64,000 bases of DNA. Origin: Rhodohalobacter barkolensis (GTDB lineage: Bacteria; Bacteroidota; Rhodothermia; Balneolales; Balneolaceae). Every line of letters starts with the position of its first letter. The first letter of the stretch is position 1. The stretch is from NCBI RefSeq assembly GCF_002834295.1, contig NZ_PISP01000001.1:682001-746000 (forward strand). Direction: 5' to 3'. Of the stretch, positions 55,391-64,000 are shown one piece after another. The translations under genes were made by a program, and so were the position numbers. The notes beneath the pieces are model-generated. The model was given only the letters and a program-made list of their open reading frames with translations, ran no database searches and had not been told where the DNA came from.

Positions 55391-57355
55391 TCAGGAATTT
55401 GATGAAAAGTTCATTTTCTGAATTCTAACTGCATTTAGGATAGCCAGAAGTGCAACTCCTACATCAGCAAAGACCGCTTCCCACAGAGAGGCCATTCCTA
55501 AAGCCCCCAGAGCCAGTACAACCGTCTTAACACCCAGGGCGAGACCTATGTTCTGCCAGACTATGTTTCGTGTCTTACGTGCAATCCTTATCGATTCTGC
55601 TATTTTGGTAAGTTGGTCGGATTGAATCACGACATCAGCCGTCTCTACTGCCGCATCACTTCCCATCGCACCCATTGCAATTCCAACATCACTTAAAGCT
55701 AAAACCGGTGCATCATTTATTCCGTCTCCGGCATAGGCTACTTTGCCTTTTGTTCGCTCTTTAATCTCTTCAAGTTTTTCTGATTTCTGTTCCGGTAGCA
55801 AATCTCCATAGATTTCATCAATTTTCAGATCACGGCCAACTTCCTCGACTACTTCTTTGTGATCTCCGCTGAGCATAACCGTTCGATCCACGCCCAGATG
55901 ATGTAATTGTCGGATCGCGTGTTTAGCGTCATCTTTCAACCGATCAGAAATGGTTACAGTAGCTTGATGAATACCGTCAATTGCCATATGTACTTTTGTG
56001 GAAGAATTTTTGGATTCAGAACCTGACTTATTCAATTCAACCTGTTCGTTCTCCATTAGCTTTTGATTACCAATGACCACAGTTTGTCCCTCAATAATGG
56101 ACTTTAATCCATAACCCGGTATTTCGTTCTGTTGATCTACTTTCAGCGAATGTTCGGGAGTGTAGATGTAATCAGTAATTGCTCTTGCAATAGGATGATT
56201 TGAGACTTTCTCAACCGCAAACAGATAAGAGCCTATTTGCGATTCGTTCATGTCGGAGTACAGTTCAATATTTTGAACAGAAAATGTAGCGTGTGTCAGG
56301 GTTCCGGTTTTGTCAAAGACTACCGTTTTGACCGAACGGAGTGCATCCAGAAAATTACCTCCTTTCACCAATATTCCATTTTTAGATGCTGCACCGATTC
56401 CGCCAAAATATCCAAGCGGGATAGAGATCACCAAAGCGCAAGGGCAGGAGATCACAAGAAAGACCAGTCCGCGATAGAGCCACTCCTCGAATACGTATGA
56501 TGAGACAAAAAGAGCGGGAAGAGCTACAAGAAGAGTTGCCAGCAATACCACAATGGGAGTGTAAACTTTCGCGAATGAGCGTATGAACAGTTCCGTTTTT
56601 GCTTTCCTGGATGTCGCTTCCTGTACCATCTTCAGGATTCGGGAGATGGAACTGTTTTCGTAAGTTTTTTGGACCTCCAGCTCAATAACCCGATTTAAAT
56701 TGATCATTCCGGCTAACACATTCTCATTATCCGAAATATGTCGAGGTTTACTTTCGCCGGTAATGGCAGAAGTGTCAAATGCAGCGCGATCGGTTATCAG
56801 TTTTCCGTCTAAAGGTACTCTCTCTCCCGGTTTCACTTGAATAATCTGGCCAATTGGTACACTATCCGGGTGAACAGTTTTGAAAGAGTTCCCGTCTTTG
56901 ACGTGAGCTACCTCTGCCCGTACGTCGAGCAGGGCACGGATACTGCTTCTTGCCTTTTGAACGGCACTATGTTGAAATGCTTCACCAACAGAATAAAAAA
57001 GCATAACAGCCACGCCTTCGGGGTACTCGCCAATAAAGAAAGCTCCAAATGTGGCTATACTCATCAAAAAGAATTCTGTGAACACTTCGCCTCTGATCAG
57101 GCTTTCCCATCCCATTTTTACAACCGGATACCCGACCGGCAGATATGCAATCAGATACCAGGCAAGACGAAAACTTTCATTAAACCATACCGGATCAATG
57201 AAATAGTCCAGAATTAACCCAATGGTTAATAGCAGGGCAGAAACGATTGGCTGCCAGTGTTTGGTGAGAAAATTTACTTCATCAGTAGAGTAAGAGGGGG
57301 TATCATGATTTACACTGCATGTTTTACACCCTGTTTGAGCTGAAGATTGTGACAT
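55391..57355 (-). CDS. P1B-type heavy-metal-translocating ATPase (CPC motif, no HMA domain)
   Basis: Metal-exporting P-type ATPase, 654 aa. Order: short Cys-bearing N-terminus (TGCKTCSVNHD, about 8-18) instead of an HMA domain; helices from about 33; actuator motif TSAITGESKPR; transmembrane metal site VISCPCALVIS (about 303-313); phosphorylation site FDKTGTLTHA (about 346); SNHPIARAI (the HP motif of P1B pumps); hinge GDGINDAPVLALSDVGIAMG; two C-terminal helices. CPC fits Zn/Cd/Pb or Cu pumps; the last-helix residues (ADVGVALLAILNAVR, with an Asp) favour the Zn/Cd group. It follows the Fur-family gene by 80 bp on the same strand, suggesting metal-responsive control. Confidence 0.93.
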   Translation of the reverse strand: MSQSSAQTGCKTCSVNHDTPSYSTDEVNFLTKHWQPIVSALLLTIGLILDYFIDPVWFNESFRLAWYLIAYLPVGYPVVKMGWESLIRGEVFTEFFLMSIATFGAFFIGEYPEGVAVMLFYSVGEAFQHSAVQKARSSIRALLDVRAEVAHVKDGNSFKTVHPDSVPIGQIIQVKPGERVPLDGKLITDRAAFDTSAITGESKPRHISDNENVLAGMINLNRVIELEVQKTYENSSISRILKMVQEATSRKAKTELFIRSFAKVYTPIVVLLATLLVALPALFVSSYVFEEWLYRGLVFLVISCPCALVISIPLGYFGGIGAASKNGILVKGGNFLDALRSVKTVVFDKTGTLTHATFSVQNIELYSDMNESQIGSYLFAVEKVSNHPIARAITDYIYTPEHSLKVDQQNEIPGYGLKSIIEGQTVVIGNQKLMENEQVELNKSGSESKNSSTKVHMAIDGIHQATVTISDRLKDDAKHAIRQLHHLGVDRTVMLSGDHKEVVEEVGRDLKIDEIYGDLLPEQKSEKLEEIKERTKGKVAYAGDGINDAPVLALSDVGIAMGAMGSDAAVETADVVIQSDQLTKIAESIRIARKTRNIVWQNIGLALGVKTVVLALGALGMASLWEAVFADVGVALLAILNAVRIQKMNFSSNS

Positions 57356-57435: not shown

Positions 57436-57855
57436 TTAGGCAGCACAGGAAGGACAGAACCCACTGATGACAAAATTCCCTTTTTTGGGAATAAACTGTT
57501 CAGGAAGTGAAAAGTTTGGAATGTTTAAGTCTCTAAAGCAGAACGTTTTCTCACAATCAGTACAGAAAAAATGTAGGTGCGTGTCATCGGGATAGGAGCA
57601 TGTGCATTCGGCCGGACAGAGAGCGTATTTGGTGCTGTCTCCCGCGTCATCAATTCTGTGCACAAGACCTTTCTCTTCAAATGTTCTTAGTGTACGGTAC
57701 AGAGTGGTTCTGTCTGAACGGGTAAAATGGTTCTCCAGTAAAGTAAGACTCACAGCTGCCTCGTTTTTAACCAGGAAGTTTAAAACCATCAACCGCATTG
57801 AAGTAGGTTGAATTTTACGATTTTGAAGTTGATTGATGAGAATCTTTTCTTCCAT
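57436..57855 (-). CDS. Fur-family transcriptional regulator (Zur/PerR/Fur-like)
   Basis: 139-aa metal-sensing repressor. Winged HTH: LINQLQNRKIQPTSMRLMVL with recognition helix region RSDRTTLYRTLRTFEEKGLV. The dimerisation domain has HLHFFCTDCEKTFC and the C-terminal GFCPSC, giving two Cys pairs for structural zinc, plus sensing ligands in the CTCSYPDDTHLHF region. The unusual CPAECTCSYPDD insert adds two more Cys before the His-x-His motif. Adjacent P1B ATPase points to Zn or another divalent metal as effector; iron or peroxide sensing cannot be excluded. Candidate operator sites lie directly upstream. Confidence 0.93.
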   Translation of the reverse strand: MEEKILINQLQNRKIQPTSMRLMVLNFLVKNEAAVSLTLLENHFTRSDRTTLYRTLRTFEEKGLVHRIDDAGDSTKYALCPAECTCSYPDDTHLHFFCTDCEKTFCFRDLNIPNFSLPEQFIPKKGNFVISGFCPSCAA

Positions 57856-57892: not shown

Positions 57893-58309
57893 TTAATGGT
57901 GATGGCGGTAGGTTACAATTCTTTGCCACATTAGTATTGCAAAGATGAGGATTGAGCTCAGAATCAGGCCTCTGCTTGCAATGGAAACAAAAAAGTGTGT
58001 TTGAAAGAGTGTAGTTATAACCAAAAGCATCAAACCGAAATTATAGAAACCAAAAACCAGCCAGCCGGCCCAACCTGGTCCTCTTCTGGGTTCTGATAAT
58101 TTTTTGGGAAACATCCAGTACGCTGTTCCCATTGCCAGTTGTACGACCCATCCCCAGATAGCCATTTCGTAATGAGCCGGCAGCAGTGCCCAAATAAAAG
58201 GGTGAACCGCTATCACTTTATGAATCAGGATAAGGGTGCCCACGCTTACTGATAGCAGCAGGTAGAGGAGAGATGATCGAATCATCCAGATGGATTGAGA
58301 GGGCATCAT
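57893..58309 (-). CDS. Four-helix membrane protein, haem-copper oxidase subunit I-like fragment
   Basis: 138-aa integral membrane protein with four predicted helices. Helix 2 carries HYEMAIWGWVVQLAMGTAYW followed by MFPKK, a His-x7-W/Q-x3-G-WMFP pattern shared with the neighbouring paralogue; this motif is typical of small proteins annotated as cbb3-type oxidase subunit I-like or NnrS-like. A single haem- or Cu-binding His per subunit suggests it works as an oligomer or with its paralogue. C-terminus is His-rich (TYRHHH). It lies in the nitrite/NO cluster, so a role in NO chemistry or electron transfer is inferred. Only 8 bp from the next paralogue gene. Confidence 0.75.
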   Translation of the reverse strand: MMPSQSIWMIRSSLLYLLLSVSVGTLILIHKVIAVHPFIWALLPAHYEMAIWGWVVQLAMGTAYWMFPKKLSEPRRGPGWAGWLVFGFYNFGLMLLVITTLFQTHFFVSIASRGLILSSILIFAILMWQRIVTYRHHH

Positions 58310-58317
58310 AACAATAA

Positions 58318-58740
58318 CTATCTTTGTTTTTTACGGTTTTGAAGCCTTGGCCAAATCTCGATGGTATATAGAATCACGGCGATCCACTGCAACAACGCTG
58401 ATACAACAATACTGATTTGAATAACTTTGCCATCCTTTAAAAGTGGAATAAACGGTTCAGATAAAAATCGAAGGATCAAACCGATATTTAAAGTCCAAAA
58501 TGTTGCCCAAACCAAAATTGATTCTCTTCTTTTTTTGTCCCGGTGTTTGCGGGGAAACATCCATACTGATACCCCGATGATCAACTGAGTAATCCAGCCC
58601 ATAACCAGCATATGCAAATAGATTGGCAATAAAGAGAGTTTACTGCTCATTAAAGGGATTTCATCCAGAAAGACGAGCGTAATCCCTAATACAAAGTAGA
58701 TAACACCGGCTTTTATAAACCATCGGCTTGTAGTCGGCAT
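58318..58740 (-). CDS. Four-helix membrane protein, paralogue of the downstream gene product
   Basis: 140 aa, four hydrophobic helices. Helix 2 motif: HMLVMGWITQLIIGVSVW followed by MFPRK, aligning with HYEMAIWGW... of the next gene (same His, GW, Q, G and WMFP positions), so the two genes arose by tandem duplication. Loops are positively charged (RKHRDKKRRES), fixing the cytoplasmic side. It lacks the full set of His ligands of a haem-copper oxidase, so if it binds haem it must use few ligands or share them. Function inferred only from context. Confidence 0.75.
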   Translation of the reverse strand: MPTTSRWFIKAGVIYFVLGITLVFLDEIPLMSSKLSLLPIYLHMLVMGWITQLIIGVSVWMFPRKHRDKKRRESILVWATFWTLNIGLILRFLSEPFIPLLKDGKVIQISIVVSALLQWIAVILYTIEIWPRLQNRKKQR

Positions 58741-58776: not shown

Positions 58777-59262
58777 TCATCTCACCAGCGAAACAGCAAA
58801 GTAGAGAATGATCAGCCCCAAGATTAAATTGATCCGGCCACCCCAGCTCGAGGCCTTGCGATATCTGTAAGTAGTTTCACTATTGGGATCTTTCTTCATT
58901 AAATCTGCGGCTTTTGGGCCGAGCCAGAAATCATGAATCGCTGCTACAATTAACATCAAGGAGAATGCGATCAATTTACTGAATAGGGTTGATCCATACT
59001 CACTTTGCCAGAATGTGACTGAAATCAGATCCTGTACGCTGAAGCCCCGGCCAAGCAGGGCGGTGATTCCGGTAATTATGAGAATAGGGAAGAGTAGCCA
59101 ACTCAGTCGGCTGAAACGTGTGCCCAGTTCAGTAAATAGAAGTCCGCGTTGTGTAGCAAGTTTTTTTCGGGTTGCAGGTACCAGAACGGCAGCCGTAAAG
59201 ATTATACCGCCAATCCAGAAACAAACAATGGTGATGTGGACAAACACTGACCAAAAATACAT
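58777..59262 (-). CDS. CopD-like membrane protein
   Basis: 161 aa with four helices: FVHITIVCFWIGGIIFTAAV (His and conserved WIGG), LSWLLFPILIITGITALL, LIAFSLMLIVAAIHDFWL and GGRINLILGLIILYFAVSL. The pattern VHI...FWIGG, a central G-x-T and the late HDFWLGP match the CopD/PcoD-like copper-resistance/DUF2269 superfamily of small membrane proteins proposed to carry copper or haem. It sits downstream of the RIC gene and just upstream of the two four-helix membrane proteins, so it may help handle copper for NirK or the cupredoxins. Substrate unproven. Confidence 0.8.
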   Translation of the reverse strand: MYFWSVFVHITIVCFWIGGIIFTAAVLVPATRKKLATQRGLLFTELGTRFSRLSWLLFPILIITGITALLGRGFSVQDLISVTFWQSEYGSTLFSKLIAFSLMLIVAAIHDFWLGPKAADLMKKDPNSETTYRYRKASSWGGRINLILGLIILYFAVSLVR

Positions 59263-59349: not shown

Positions 59350-60090
59350 TCATAAATCAGATAGAAGTGTCTCTGCTTTTTTAAATAAGATGTTATTCTC
59401 GAGGTGAACGTGCTGATGCAGGTCCTCTTCAAATCCGGCCAGGTTCTGGTAAAGTATTTGATAGGTTGCACATGCATCTGCAGGAGGTGTAAAATCGTTG
59501 CTTAGAGAACGGATCTCTTTCATGATATCGCCGGCACCTTCATGATCATCAATCATGTGATCGAGTTCTGCACGTAGCTGATTTGCCAATTTCTCATTTA
59601 CTTCTTCACCGTTTTTAATCTGAAGATGTATATTTTTAATCAATGGAAAAACAGTCTGCTCTTCATCTTGGAGGTGTTGAATCAGCTCATTGGAAAGCTT
59701 TGCAAACAATTGATAGATCTCGATATTTTCCGGGTGACGCTCTCCATGAACGTTGGCAACTTTCGCAGCATACACCAAAATTTCCTCCGTTTTGGTACGC
59801 ACAAAGGTGTGATGATTATTGATGATGTAGTCTATCAAAAAGTCGGGTTCCCATAGGTTAAACTTCTGATTGACGGTTGTTCCACCGGTAGGCATTGTGC
59901 TCAATTTTAAAGTGACCTGGTCGGGATTGATACCTTTACGTTCGCAAACCTCTCCAAGCGGTAAACCGCCTCCACAGCAGAAGTCAATTCCAAACTCTTT
60001 GAAAACACCGGCAGCGTGGTAGTTATCAGCAACAATATCACCAATGTTTCTCTGTACTAAAGTTGTTGGGTCGTTATTCATCATGGTCAA
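59350..60090 (-). CDS. ric: Iron-sulfur cluster repair di-iron protein (RIC/YtfE/ScdA)
   Basis: Cytoplasmic haemerythrin-like protein that repairs Fe-S clusters damaged by NO or oxidants. N-terminal ScdA_N/DUF542 domain with the Cys pair and glycines (GIDFCCGGGLPLGEVCERKG, about 34-53); then a four-helix haemerythrin domain with ligands in DYIINNHHTFVRTKTE, NVHGERHPE, QHLQDEEQTVFPLI, ELDHMIDDHEGAGDIM and LHQHVHLENNILFKKAETLL. 246 aa is standard. It directly follows the Rrf2 regulator gene (30 bp), the arrangement expected for NO-stress control. Confidence 0.96.
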   Translation of the reverse strand: MTMMNNDPTTLVQRNIGDIVADNYHAAGVFKEFGIDFCCGGGLPLGEVCERKGINPDQVTLKLSTMPTGGTTVNQKFNLWEPDFLIDYIINNHHTFVRTKTEEILVYAAKVANVHGERHPENIEIYQLFAKLSNELIQHLQDEEQTVFPLIKNIHLQIKNGEEVNEKLANQLRAELDHMIDDHEGAGDIMKEIRSLSNDFTPPADACATYQILYQNLAGFEEDLHQHVHLENNILFKKAETLLSDL

Positions 60091-60120: not shown

Positions 60121-60531
60121 TTAAATTTTAATATTTCGATACTCTGAAAAATCACTCAATGTACTTTCCTTTATAAACTTAAACGTGATATCTGATAAAA
60201 ATTCTAAGTCTTTAAACAAAGCGGACAGTTCCAATTTTGTATCCGGTTTTCCTTTATCGGTGTACATTTCAATAAATGAGGGATTGGAAGCCTGAATGAT
60301 GTCAATTAAGAAAATTTCTGATGCAGGTCTGGCCAGTAAAACCCCTCCATTTGATCCTCGTTTTGATCTGACCAGACCGGCTTTTTTCAGTTTTTGGAGT
60401 ACCTTAACCAGATACTCATTGGGCATATCCAGTTCACGACTAATCCTCTTGGTAGACACCGGAGTGTCACCAGATTGAAGAGCTAAATACTCACAAGCTC
60501 TTAACCCATATTTACCTGAATTGGATAGCAT
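60121..60531 (-). CDS. Rrf2-family transcriptional regulator lacking the Fe-S cysteine cluster
   Basis: 136 aa from ATG 60531; a longer frame to 60624 would overlap the cupredoxin gene. N-terminal winged HTH: MLSNSGKYGLRACEYLALQS and ISRELDMPNEYLVKVLQKLK, then the wing LVRSKRGSNGGVLLARPASE, characteristic of Rrf2/IscR/NsrR. The three-Cys cluster-binding loop of NsrR/IscR is absent: the only Cys is residue 13 in the HTH, and the corresponding region reads NPSFIEMYTDKGKPDTKLEL. It probably regulates ric and the nitrite genes, but by some non-cluster signal. Confidence 0.9.
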   Translation of the reverse strand: MLSNSGKYGLRACEYLALQSGDTPVSTKRISRELDMPNEYLVKVLQKLKKAGLVRSKRGSNGGVLLARPASEIFLIDIIQASNPSFIEMYTDKGKPDTKLELSALFKDLEFLSDITFKFIKESTLSDFSEYRNIKI

Positions 60532-60566
60532 TTGGATGGTTTCTTTTTGAGTATGAATGAACTTGT

Positions 60567-61034
60567 TTACTGTACGCGCAAGATTCCGACCATTCCAGCC
60601 ATGTAGTGTCCGGGGAAGGTGCAAACAAAGTCATAGTCGCCTTTGGTTTCAGGAACTGTAAACTCCATCTCTACTGATTCACCGCCGCCCAGCATTGGTG
60701 TGTTAAAGATCACCTGGTCTTCATAATCAGGTGCGATGAACTCGTTATCTCTGGCCGACATGGAAGCCTGTGCAAAAGCATCGGTATCTGTTCCAAGGTC
60801 AACAATGGCAATGTTGTGAGACATAGTCTGGGGTGGCATATCACTTTTAGTCTCAAATACGATTTTGATGGTTTCACCCGGTTCAGCTTCAATCAGGGTT
60901 ACATCAAATTTCATATTGTCCATTCCTTTGATGTTTACGGTTCGTATATCATCGCTTTCGTTAGATGCAAATGCCGGTATAGCGATAAGGAGTGCTGTAA
61001 ATAGTGTGATAATTGTTTTAATTGTACGTTTCAT
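60567..61034 (-). CDS. Azurin/auracyanin-like cupredoxin
   Basis: Periplasmic type 1 copper electron carrier, 155 aa with a Sec signal peptide (IKTIITLFTALLIAIPAFA). The mature domain starts TVNIKGMDNMKFDVTLIEAE and has the copper ligands His in QTMSHNIAI, then Cys, His and Met in FVCTFPGHYMAGMVG. The insertion TDTDAFAQASMSARDNEF and the spacing match azurin-type proteins. Likely electron donor to NirK or acceptor from the quinol-oxidising chain. Located between the second cupredoxin and the Rrf2 gene. Confidence 0.93.
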   Translation of the reverse strand: MKRTIKTIITLFTALLIAIPAFASNESDDIRTVNIKGMDNMKFDVTLIEAEPGETIKIVFETKSDMPPQTMSHNIAIVDLGTDTDAFAQASMSARDNEFIAPDYEDQVIFNTPMLGGGESVEMEFTVPETKGDYDFVCTFPGHYMAGMVGILRVQ

Positions 61035-61066: not shown

Positions 61067-61471
61067 TTAGTTGTTTTTGTCCGATGATCGGACGGTAAAT
61101 TTTCCTTTGTGTCCCATACGTTCGTGTGGGCGGCAGAAGTAGTTGTATTCACCGGTTACATTTGGGCGGTAAAACCACTCCTGACCTTTTTGAAGCAGAT
61201 CTGAATCAAATGATTCAGCCGACTCCGGAATCCCAAGTTCTCTGCGATTATCCGGATGGTAGGCGGTAACGGTGTGTATGCCTTCCTCTACCACAAACCT
61301 CAGCAGATCACCTTTTTGAATATCTGCTTCAGCCGGAACAAACCTGGAATTTTCCATTGATCCCACAATTCGAATGGTAACTGTATCGGCTTCAGCATTT
61401 TGATTGTTTTGTGCATAAAGTCCGCTAACAGTCAGTACTAAAAGGGTGATATGTAAAACAATTAATTTCAA
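61067..61471 (-). CDS. Plastocyanin-like cupredoxin
   Basis: 134 aa with signal peptide (LIVLHITLLVLTVSGLYA, then Q). Type 1 copper ligands: His in EEGIHTVTAYHP, and Cys, His, Met in YNYFCRPHERMGHKGKF. The Cys-to-His and His-to-Met spacings are those of plastocyanin/pseudoazurin-type proteins, different from the neighbouring azurin-like protein; SMENSRFVPAEADIQKGD is the typical strand before the first ligand. The ATG overlaps the end of the SCO gene by 4 bp, so the two are translationally coupled. Putative electron shuttle for nitrite reduction or copper carrier. Confidence 0.92.
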   Translation of the reverse strand: MKLIVLHITLLVLTVSGLYAQNNQNAEADTVTIRIVGSMENSRFVPAEADIQKGDLLRFVVEEGIHTVTAYHPDNRRELGIPESAESFDSDLLQKGQEWFYRPNVTGEYNYFCRPHERMGHKGKFTVRSSDKNN

Positions 61472-62112
61472 CGGGTTAGACTTTCAATAAGAGTGATATC
61501 GTCAGCCAGATTTCCGATAATACCTTCAATCCTGTGGCTGATATTACCGTGTTTATCCAGAACTGTTATCAGGTTTGAGTGATCAAAATGTCCATCACTG
61601 CGCTCCCGATACTGAACTCCCAGGAGGGAGGCAAGTTGCCGGATATCCATTTGATCAGCCGTTACAAAATGCCAGTCGGGCAGATCGAGCTGTTCATATT
61701 CGGCATACTCTTTCAGTGCTTGGGGTGTGTCGTTTTTGTAATCAAAACTTACAGCCAGAACATTGATGTTTTCCTGAGTCTCTTCACTCAGTGAGGAGTA
61801 TAGCTTCCAGGTTCGCTGAATCAGCATCGGACAGGTTTCCGTACACTTTCCGTAAAACATTACCACTATGAGTGGCTGTCCGGCAAAATCTTTGATCTGT
61901 ACGGATTCACTGTTTTGGTTGACCCATGTTGTCGGAATCTGATGCAGTGACTCGGAATGATTGATTGCTTCAGAGTCAAGCTCTTTCATCTGCTCCATGT
62001 CATGCTCGTGACCATGATCATGTCCATCTCCCTGACTGTGCTGAGCCGTTGCTGTAACCGCTGATGCGGATAGCACAAATAAAGTAATGAGTGTTGCTTT
62101 GAAAACTTTCAT
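61468..62112 (-). CDS. SCO1/SenC-family copper chaperone with His-rich N-terminus
   Basis: Thioredoxin-fold copper metallochaperone, 214 aa. Signal peptide (TLITLFVLSASAVTATA, then Q) is followed by a His-rich stretch (HSQGDGHDHGHEHDMEQM) that could bind copper or zinc. The SCO motif YGKCTETCPM (CxxxC, about 89-98) and the third ligand His in FDHSNLITVL (about 175) complete the copper site. Probable function: metallating NirK or a terminal oxidase, or thiol reduction. In an operon with the cupredoxin (4-bp overlap) and the NirV-like gene (1 bp gap). Confidence 0.94.
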   Translation of the reverse strand: MKVFKATLITLFVLSASAVTATAQHSQGDGHDHGHEHDMEQMKELDSEAINHSESLHQIPTTWVNQNSESVQIKDFAGQPLIVVMFYGKCTETCPMLIQRTWKLYSSLSEETQENINVLAVSFDYKNDTPQALKEYAEYEQLDLPDWHFVTADQMDIRQLASLLGVQYRERSDGHFDHSNLITVLDKHGNISHRIEGIIGNLADDITLIESLTR

Positions 62113-62113
62113 A

Positions 62114-62905
62114 TTAAATCTCCATCTTATTGCTGTTCATATCGTAAGCGCATCGAAAACCGAGCATACCTGTTGAGCTTGTAGGCTTAAAACTCATTCG
62201 TGTGATGTATCGGATTGACATTGCGTAACTGTACACAGATGCATCACCCTGCATTCGGCCTACGGTTCCGCAATCGAGTGAGATATCATCGGCAATGGGA
62301 GGATTGAAATCTTCGACCCACTCCATAATCAGACCGAAAAGATCTTTGACTCCATATCGATTTTCGATACCCGTTGATCCCACATCGCTTTTGATCTTTG
62401 TATCCACCGCGGAGTACCACCCGATCAGCTCACTACTGAAACGGTTCGCCTCAAGGTTTGAATCGAAATCCATCGCCTGAGCAGCATATTCCCATTCGTT
62501 TAAAGTAGGAAGCCGACCTCCGTTCCATTCGCAATAAGAATTAGCGGCATACCAGGATACTCTAGTAACCGGTCTGTCCATTATCTCATCACTACCCGGG
62601 TTTAAATCATATTCCCAATGACGCAGATAATCACTGCCGGCAAAAAGTGGAGAGATGGAAGAGCGCTGCCACTCCGGATTTTCCTTCAAAAACTCAAGGT
62701 AATCTTCGTTTGTAACAGCGGTCTCATCAATTTTAAAAGGCTCCACCTGATGCGGTTCGCCCACAACTTCCGGCAAGACAGAGTGAAAGCTGCCTTCCGG
62801 TATGGCAATAGCCTGATTCTGTGCTTGCACAACCGGCAGTTGTATAGCCAGTAAAAAGCCAAGAACCGCAGCTACTTTATGATATGTGTTGAAAGGCAGT
62901 TTCAT
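62114..62905 (-). CDS. nirV: NirV-like formylglycine-generating-enzyme-family protein
   Basis: 263-aa exported protein (signal peptide HKVAAVLGFLLAIQLPVVQA) with the SUMF1/FGE fold: PFKIDETAVTNEDYLEFLKE, DRPVTRVSWYAANSYCEWNG, GRLPTLNEWEYAAQAM, DLFGLIMEWVED and GMLGFRCAYD. The pair of catalytic Cys expected between the MEWVED and GFRCA segments of true FGEs is not seen (that region reads GRMQGDASVYSYAMSIRYIT), as is typical of NirV-type proteins linked to nirK. It probably assists NirK maturation, a known association rather than a proven mechanism. Starts 4 bp after the nirK stop. Confidence 0.9.
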   Translation of the reverse strand: MKLPFNTYHKVAAVLGFLLAIQLPVVQAQNQAIAIPEGSFHSVLPEVVGEPHQVEPFKIDETAVTNEDYLEFLKENPEWQRSSISPLFAGSDYLRHWEYDLNPGSDEIMDRPVTRVSWYAANSYCEWNGGRLPTLNEWEYAAQAMDFDSNLEANRFSSELIGWYSAVDTKIKSDVGSTGIENRYGVKDLFGLIMEWVEDFNPPIADDISLDCGTVGRMQGDASVYSYAMSIRYITRMSFKPTSSTGMLGFRCAYDMNSNKMEI

Positions 62906-62909
62906 CTTT

Positions 62910-64000
62910 CTATTGTCTTGGACCGGCTTTTAGTGTACCTGTCGCACCTTTTTCTGCATCGGCAAATTCGTGGTCGATCAGGGTGTATTTTCCTTCCTCA
63001 GGCACGATGAATTCAACAGTAGCTGAACCGGACGCGCCTAAAAGCACAGTCTGCATGCCTCGCATTTCATTGTATGGATGTCCCTCTAACCAAACACGGT
63101 CAAAAATAGCACCAATCACATGGAAACTGGATGTCAGGCTTGGTCCGTTGTTTGAAAAGTGAATGCGCACCCGTTCGCCTTCATTGGCTGTTAGGGGCTG
63201 ATCGTGCAGAATAGTTTGGTGGCCATTGAATACAACATGAGATGGCTGTTTGGTCTGAGCGCCTTCAAAATCGTACTGATAGAGGTCGCCGGCTCCTTTT
63301 TTAAGGTAGTATTCTGATTGAACGACTACGTACTCCTCATCAACACGATCATCTGTTTCGTAACCATCTTTTGGGGAAACAACAACGACACCGTGCTGAC
63401 CCATTGCAGTGTGCATCAATACACTTGGAGTTCCACAGTGGTAGATGTATGTCCCTGCATAATTTGCATACCAGTCAAATGAAATGGTTTCACCGGGAGC
63501 AATGGTTCTCCACTTATCATCTTTTGCTACAGTACCGGAGTGGAAGTCCATAGAATGTGGCATTGGCATGATGGATGGCTCTGCACCCATATAATCGTTT
63601 TCTGAGATCTGTTTCAGGTAATCTGAGCCTTCCAGACCGGGCTTGGTGATAGTGACCATCTCATCCGATCGGTTTTTCATTGTGAAGGTAATTTTATCAC
63701 CCTCTTTTACGTGAATGACCGGACCCGGTACCATTCCGCCAAATGTCCATGCCCGAAAACGAACGCCATCAGCGACTTCAATTTCCTGAGTAAAGGTGTC
63801 CAGGCGAATTTCGTGGTGCTTATTGCCTTCATAGTCAAGCGGCTTTAGATGAGGTAACATGGTTACATACTCGCCAACAACCGGAGGGCCGTCGTAATCT
63901 TCTGTATAAACTTCTGCTTCGGGCATACCAAAAGTCAAGCCGTCAATGGTGTATTCCTGTGATTGTGCTTGCAGGTTCATCAAACCTGCGGTTATAAATA
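62910..64000 (-). CDS. nirK: Copper-containing nitrite reductase NirK, 5' end outside window
   Basis: Periplasmic trimeric enzyme reducing nitrite to NO in denitrification. The frame is open to the window edge (upstream residues FITAGLMNLQAQS look like the end of a signal peptide), so the true start is beyond base 64000; 363 codons are visible. Two cupredoxin domains: the first has the type 2 Cu ligands in PHSMDFHS (Asp and His) and the type 1 site YHCGTPSVLMHTAMGQHG (His, Cys, His, Met); the second has the remaining ligands in SSFHVIGAIFDRVW. The 'YHCGTPxVLMH' form marks the class II NirK branch rather than the Alcaligenes/Achromobacter type. First gene of the run. Confidence 0.96.
   Translation of the reverse strand, partial: FITAGLMNLQAQSQEYTIDGLTFGMPEAEVYTEDYDGPPVVGEYVTMLPHLKPLDYEGNKHHEIRLDTFTQEIEVADGVRFRAWTFGGMVPGPVIHVKEGDKITFTMKNRSDEMVTITKPGLEGSDYLKQISENDYMGAEPSIMPMPHSMDFHSGTVAKDDKWRTIAPGETISFDWYANYAGTYIYHCGTPSVLMHTAMGQHGVVVVSPKDGYETDDRVDEEYVVVQSEYYLKKGAGDLYQYDFEGAQTKQPSHVVFNGHQTILHDQPLTANEGERVRIHFSNNGPSLTSSFHVIGAIFDRVWLEGHPYNEMRGMQTVLLGASGSATVEFIVPEEGKYTLIDHEFADAEKGATGTLKAGPRQ

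Follow-up and report, generated by a model that had tools for sequence, protein, structure and literature searches.

Two adjacent four-helix haem-copper oxidase homologues in a denitrification gene cluster, with ligand histidines apparently divided between them

The window, a 64,000-nucleotide stretch of a Rhodohalobacter barkolensis contig, carries two adjacent open reading frames for small membrane proteins, A (57,893–58,309, 138 aa) and B (58,318–58,740, 140 aa), both on the minus strand, with B upstream of A and 8 bases between them. They sit in a close-packed run of genes on that strand. From its upstream end, the run encodes a NirK-like copper nitrite reductase, that is, an NO producer (62,910–63,983; TIGR02376, E = 8.6e-58, under the equivalog cut-off, with a start that may lie beyond the window end), a formylglycine-generating-enzyme-like (SUMF) domain protein (62,114–62,905; Pfam FGE-sulfatase, 1e-27), a SCO1/SenC copper chaperone (61,468–62,112; Pfam SCO1-SenC, 1e-18) and two cupredoxins (61,067–61,471, Pfam Copper-bind, 6e-7; 60,567–61,034, Pfam Copper-bind, 6.6e-14). 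These are followed by an Rrf2-family regulator (60,121–60,624; Pfam Rrf2, 1e-25; NsrR, 1e-11, sub-threshold; the listed start is probably too early), a di-iron Fe-S cluster repair protein of the RIC/ScdA/YtfE type (59,350–60,090; TIGR03652, E = 4e-69, above cut-off) and a CopD-domain membrane protein (58,777–59,262; Pfam CopD, E = 6e-13) whose gene ends 36 bp upstream of B. The CopD-domain gene adjoins B in the window's own genus and lies near B in some other loci. The first-pass annotation had placed A and B next to NO-handling genes, and these Pfam and NCBIfam-type profile matches bear it out. Directly downstream of A, the run continues with a Fur-family regulator (57,436–57,855) and a metal P-type ATPase (55,391–57,355), possibly a separate metal-homeostasis unit.

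A and B are homologous to one another (31% identity over most of their length, E = 1.1e-13), in keeping with the tandem arrangement first read from the letters. AlphaFold single-chain models (pLDDT 91.2 for B and 92.6 for A) predict four helices in each, again as the annotation had it. The basic loops that it described are found at cytoplasmic loop 2 (7 Lys + Arg in B, 4 in A) and at the C-terminus (5 in B, 2 in A), and not in the other loops, which hold 0–2 each. This charge distribution points to an N-in/C-in topology in which the helix-2 histidine lies close to the periplasmic end. A motif shared at matching positions of helix 2 had also been described; the alignment upholds it for GW, Q, G and WMFP, and not for the histidine. 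A reads A-H46-Y-E48-M-A-I-W-G-W and B reads Y41-L-H43-M-L-V-M-G-W, so that when both are anchored on GW, A His46 (codon 58,172–58,174, minus strand) falls opposite B Tyr41, and B His43 (codon 58,612–58,614, minus strand) falls opposite A Glu48 (codon 58,166–58,168, minus strand), an offset of two residues. The alignment thus rules out equivalent histidines in A and B, and we refer to A as the 'H-x-E' type and to B as the 'x-x-H' type.

Sequence profiles relate both proteins to the haem-copper oxidase (HCO) superfamily. Pfam COX1 gave sub-threshold matches to B (26.9 bits, E = 2.7e-6), aligned to model positions 310–397 of 436 in the last third (unit 3), and to A (19.4 bits, E = 5e-4), aligned to positions 4–147 in the first third (unit 1). 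Two single-copy relatives, a class of about 151 aa in Bacteroidia, scored above the COX1 cut-off (L076, 37.0 bits; L070, 35.7 bits; cut-off 34.8). When all PDB chains were searched with a profile built from B plus its relatives, only the cbb3 oxidase subunit CcoN matched (3mk7, 8smr; E-values of 0.01 and 0.04; over helices IX–XI), with nothing else at E 1, and the alignment set His43 on the second His of the helix-X HxH; the A profile had no match to PDB sequences at E 10. In hhalign comparisons, the A, B and single-copy profiles scored higher against CcoN units 1 and 3 than all 40 of 40 column shuffles and higher than three other protein families from these loci, at probabilities that were low (B, 48%, and A, 15%, against unit 3; A, 6%, against unit 1), so that the better match of A is also to unit 3, not unit 1. 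Neither protein matched CcoN unit 2, and neither sequence has a His matching the CuB/FeB ligands of that unit. The matches from this profile check fall in a haem-protein family. NnrS (PF05940) matched neither A nor B at E 1 and gave a sub-threshold match to one single-copy relative (E = 0.002). Two further matches were below their curated cut-offs, DUF2871 (PF11070) to the L076 protein (E = 1.9e-5) and the LIC_13387 family (NF047765) to B (E = 0.0023).

Fold comparisons gave the same placement. The top PDB matches for both models were HCO or NO reductase subunit I, aligned over the full length of the query. B fitted best on the third unit, TM IX–XII (for example 3omn residues 376–524, Z 14.2, rmsd 3.1, 131 aligned), and A on unit 1 of a quinol-type NO reductase (qNOR; 6qq6 residues 277–441, Z 14.5, rmsd 2.5, 137 aligned). 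Next came the trimeric MAPEG enzymes (Z about 10–12) and, for A, styrene oxide isomerase (8pnu, Z 10.0, rmsd 3.0, 123 aligned), which was not among the matches listed for the B model. Foldseek E-values were weak (0.05 at best) and helical bundles easily reach high Z; our acceptance of the HCO-unit fold therefore rests on the agreement of three lines, sequence profile, fold and ligand position, and not on Z by itself. The haem-copper oxidase scaffold named in the annotation is therefore retained, since the COX1 profile, the CcoN-only PDB match and the subunit I fold matches all lead to it. Its description of each protein as one helix pair of an oxidase has to be revised, as both models hold a complete four-helix unit, of which an HCO has three in pseudo-symmetric arrangement; a helix-pair fragment is ruled out. 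Twelve helices in one chain, as in HCO catalytic subunit I and NnrS, are absent, with four in A and four in B. On the sequence profiles and models, A and B are best assigned as single-unit members of the HCO superfamily, each predicted to supply one four-helix unit of three.

The offset between the two histidines becomes legible beside the relatives. Helix 2 carries H-x-H in 15 of 16 single-copy Bacteroidia relatives (H-x-N in L075) and in the relative from Thermus, and in all of these the motif is followed by G, G, W and P at fixed spacing. Among the paired sequences, every A retains the first His (29/29) and has Glu as its second-site residue in 28/29 (Trp in L072), while every B retains the second His (29/29) and has an aromatic first-site residue in 28/29 (Val in the other one). 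The conservation of the single His, on which the annotation had staked its cofactor idea, thus holds in both proteins: the remaining His is invariant across the pair (58/58), and A and B have lost strictly complementary residues. H-x-H is likely the ancestral state, later divided, since HCOs themselves have it as well as the Bacteroidia and Thermus relatives; the long Thermus branch keeps the rooting of the tree from being firm.

The same H-x-H motif marks helix X of HCOs, where the first His binds the high-spin haem and the second the low-spin haem (for example bovine H376/H378). In CcoN, the helix-II His and the second helix-X His are the two axial ligands of low-spin haem b. When hhalign aligned the profiles to CcoN, His46 of A fell on the helix-II His (P-L-H-T-N) and His43 of B on the second His of helix X. 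Alignments to the aa3 and qNOR units scored poorly and gave the same His register in only part of the comparisons. We assign A the helix-II role because of the His that it keeps, its Pfam placement and its qNOR fold match.

The pair is kept as a unit. At 29/29 pair loci B precedes A on one strand, and the two genes mostly overlap or lie within a few bases of each other, commonly with a 4-base start/stop overlap at the junction. Each B-carrying genome sampled from the window's class also has A (28/28), and strong matches to the A profile (E = 5.5e-37 or better) occur only in the 28 pair genomes. In the tree, A, B and the single-copy proteins form three groups, each with 98–100% bootstrap. Presence of A in 28/28 B genomes, together with the supported tree groups, argues that the pair is not a chance arrangement. 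Decaying pseudogenes are ruled out, the pair being kept in 28/28 genomes with invariant residues. One locus, L040 (LKNA01000023.1), comes from a metagenome-assembled genome titled Chitinophagaceae; it has the same operon as the window with a B 80% identical, and the title may be wrong.

The pair loci lie mostly in denitrifying genomes (NirK, NosZ, RIC). Across 296 genomes of the phylum, NirK was found in 32 of 43 carriers of the B family and in 33 of 253 non-carriers (p = 6e-16, relatedness ignored, so that the association is inflated by the relatedness of the genomes), and NirK or NosZ in 42/43 carriers against 92/253 non-carriers. Within the window's own family, NirK was present in 20/20 B carriers and 2/16 non-carriers. 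Neighbours at other loci include RIC, a 739-aa qNOR-type protein, a NOR-like HCO with a CoxB-like partner, NosZ and Crp/Fnr regulators, and a recurring set elsewhere consists of a DUF1858-DUF2249 protein, a 12-helix three-repeat HCO-like protein and an Fe-S assembly protein. Thermus plasmids carry a similar gene set with the H-x-H relative, one of them beside a nar operon.

Several other proteins stood out in these neighbourhoods. At nine Balneolaceae-type loci (L047:7471-9291, plus strand, and 8 others), a protein of about 606 aa without a Pfam or NCBIfam match is encoded between RIC and B; it has conserved Cys-containing stretches (GLNCGGHAFASDGYLLPSLL and CLCDHLGNGAL). A many-helix protein of about 414 aa with no Pfam match is usually encoded close upstream of B (L059:11525-12769, minus strand, and 12 other loci), and its H-A-H-S-H...GW motif resembles an NnrS/HCO relative. 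Three-repeat HCO-like proteins of 421–430 aa, with H-x-H in the second repeat and not the third, adjoin DUF1858-DUF2249 and Fe-S assembly genes (L069:8776-10041 and L076:10245-11510, both minus strand; L085-L089). At L139-L143 (genomes G171, G061, G211, G092 and G270), helix VI of an HCO subunit I reads GHHSQQINV or GHMSQQINV and lacks the active-site Tyr, making these proteins candidate non-canonical NO reductases.

On balance we favour a reading, with somewhat better than even confidence, in which the single-unit HCO members A and B form a hetero-oligomer, most probably a trimer, that holds haem between its subunits and takes part in NO handling. It is based on family, fold, topology, ligand division, operon conservation and denitrification context. 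From these we infer the likely trimer, the haem, the choice of interface, the redox role and the NO chemistry. The annotation's suggestion that any cofactor would be shared between subunits gains support here. A heterodimer, which it proposed, fits less well. A trimer is the simplest assembly, given the pseudo three-fold symmetry of HCO subunit I and the trimers formed by the MAPEG enzymes and styrene oxide isomerase, the single-unit proteins of known structure among the fold matches.

The ancestor would have been a homotrimer with H-x-H on every helix 2, so that at each interface one subunit could supply its first His and the adjoining subunit its second. Duplication may then have left A with the first His, Glu replacing the second, and B with the second. 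Because A has only the first His and B only the second, a complete two-His haem site would exist only where helix 2 of A meets helix 2 of B, as a copy of the oxidase II/X low-spin site. An A-A or B-B interface could contribute no more than a single His, and a haem there would stay open to NO; an AB2 or A2B trimer would have one other interface with one His and an open haem face. Electrons could enter from the periplasmic side, with the co-encoded cupredoxins as donors, and the complex might bind NO, relay electrons to it, or reduce the NO released by the neighbouring nitrite reductase.

How far this reaches into catalysis depends on the rest of the denitrification pathway. The window genome has NirK and a clade II NosZ. 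Its only HCO catalytic subunits are two, aa3-type and ba3-type, both with the oxidase motif H-P-x-V-Y, and searches for globin/flavohaemoglobin, flavodiiron ODP and Hcp found no match in this genome, which is 97% complete, with positive results in control genomes. Among the 20 genomes of the family with A/B and NirK, 14 have only O2-reductase-type HCOs, as classed by score and length with some sequences read. A qNOR query found no match in the own-family genomes in a search that had no positive control, and PF00115 was used instead. NirK and NosZ without a recognised NO reductase therefore leave room for A/B acting on NO. At its strongest, this would make A/B the missing NO reductase, a heterotrimer with a bis-His electron-transfer haem at one interface and, at another, a one-His haem with a Glu close by or an added metal, turning NO into N2O. 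However, neither protein has a CuB/FeB-type His cluster, and NO could escape, be handled by RIC or be slowly reduced by the ba3 oxidase; the completeness of the genome and the partial reading of the HCO matches also weigh on the apparent gap. Moreover, single-unit relatives in Bacteroidia adjoin true NO reductases (qNOR or NOR-like enzymes), and the family is therefore at least sometimes accessory, not a simple substitute for one. We consider such a reductase quite unlikely, and the proposal that A and B together are the unrecognised NO reductase of the NirK- and NosZ-bearing family members, built of three one-third subunits with low-spin ligands from two genes, a long shot.

Two non-catalytic roles deserve a hearing. 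A/B could be a haem-based membrane sensor or signal-input protein, passing an NO or anoxia signal to soluble partners. The Thermus H-x-H relative directly follows a DUF2249 pair corresponding to drpA-drpB, genes whose products Thermus requires to respond to nitrate (PMC6282519), and in Bacteroidia the relatives are associated with DrpB-like DUF1858-DUF2249 proteins and with Crp/Fnr and Rrf2 regulators. Yet A and B lack a soluble output domain, no DrpA/DrpB homologue lies beside them in the window operon, and the association with regulators may be mere co-regulation; we judge a sensor unlikely. The SCO, CopD and cupredoxin neighbours, and the loss of one of two ligand His from each protein, would also suit assembly or stability factors that deliver copper or haem to NirK or another denitrification enzyme and have kept the fold and lost the cofactor. 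Had haem binding been lost, however, a His invariant in 58/58 sequences with strictly complementary losses would be unexpected, and we hold this role to be rather improbable.

If A and B form the haem-bearing hetero-oligomer that we favour, an HCO haem site would apparently be split between two genes, each His of one ancestral H-x-H being left in a different paralogue. Whether a trimer of four-helix proteins gave rise to oxidases and NO reductases would become directly testable with small, expressible proteins, and A/B would be a concrete candidate to fill the missing NO step where denitrifiers encode NirK and NosZ and no recognised NO reductase.

Single-unit HCO homologues are already known, and the pair with divided ligands appears to be new. 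Pei and colleagues reportedly described four-helix HCO homologues encoded by single genes, with a best match to HCO TM 9–12, a helix-2 His and a denitrification or NO context, and are said to have proposed homo- or heterotrimers. A and B have in common with them the four helices, a gene of their own, the TM 9–12 match, the helix-2 His and the setting among denitrification and NO genes. That work is Pei, Li, Kinch and Grishin 2014 (Protein Sci 23:1220), as cited in PMC11218638 and PMC4602095; the literature that we searched, to which its full text did not belong, held no description of an A/B pair with complementary His loss.

Other membrane proteins offer parallels. Styrene oxide isomerase is a trimer that binds haem b at each of its interfaces by a single His (PMC11374702); its four-helix fold resembles that of A (8pnu, as above), but it is a homotrimer of the styrene degradation pathway with no detected sequence relation to A or B. 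The trimeric MAPEG enzymes (PMC4602095), among them mPGES-1, LTC4 synthase and MGST2, share the same four-helix fold; they are glutathione enzymes rather than haem proteins, and no sequence relation to the pair was found, with no Pfam MAPEG match reported for A or B. YgdD/DUF423 of E. coli, a four-helix protein, has been modelled as a homotrimer resembling MAPEG enzymes and the core of HCOs (PMC4602095); unlike A/B it has no link to NO genes in that paper, and it is likened to them by description, not by sequence. DUF2871 and the LIC_13387 family are likewise short membrane families, with the sub-threshold matches given above. NnrS is, like A/B, an NO-linked HCO-like membrane protein, but it has 12 helices in one chain, and neither A nor B matches its profile. 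In CcoN (3mk7, 8smr), the His positions of the low-spin haem b site match A on helix II and B on helix X; CcoN places them in one 12-helix chain together with CuB ligands, whereas A and B are separate four-helix proteins without CuB ligands.
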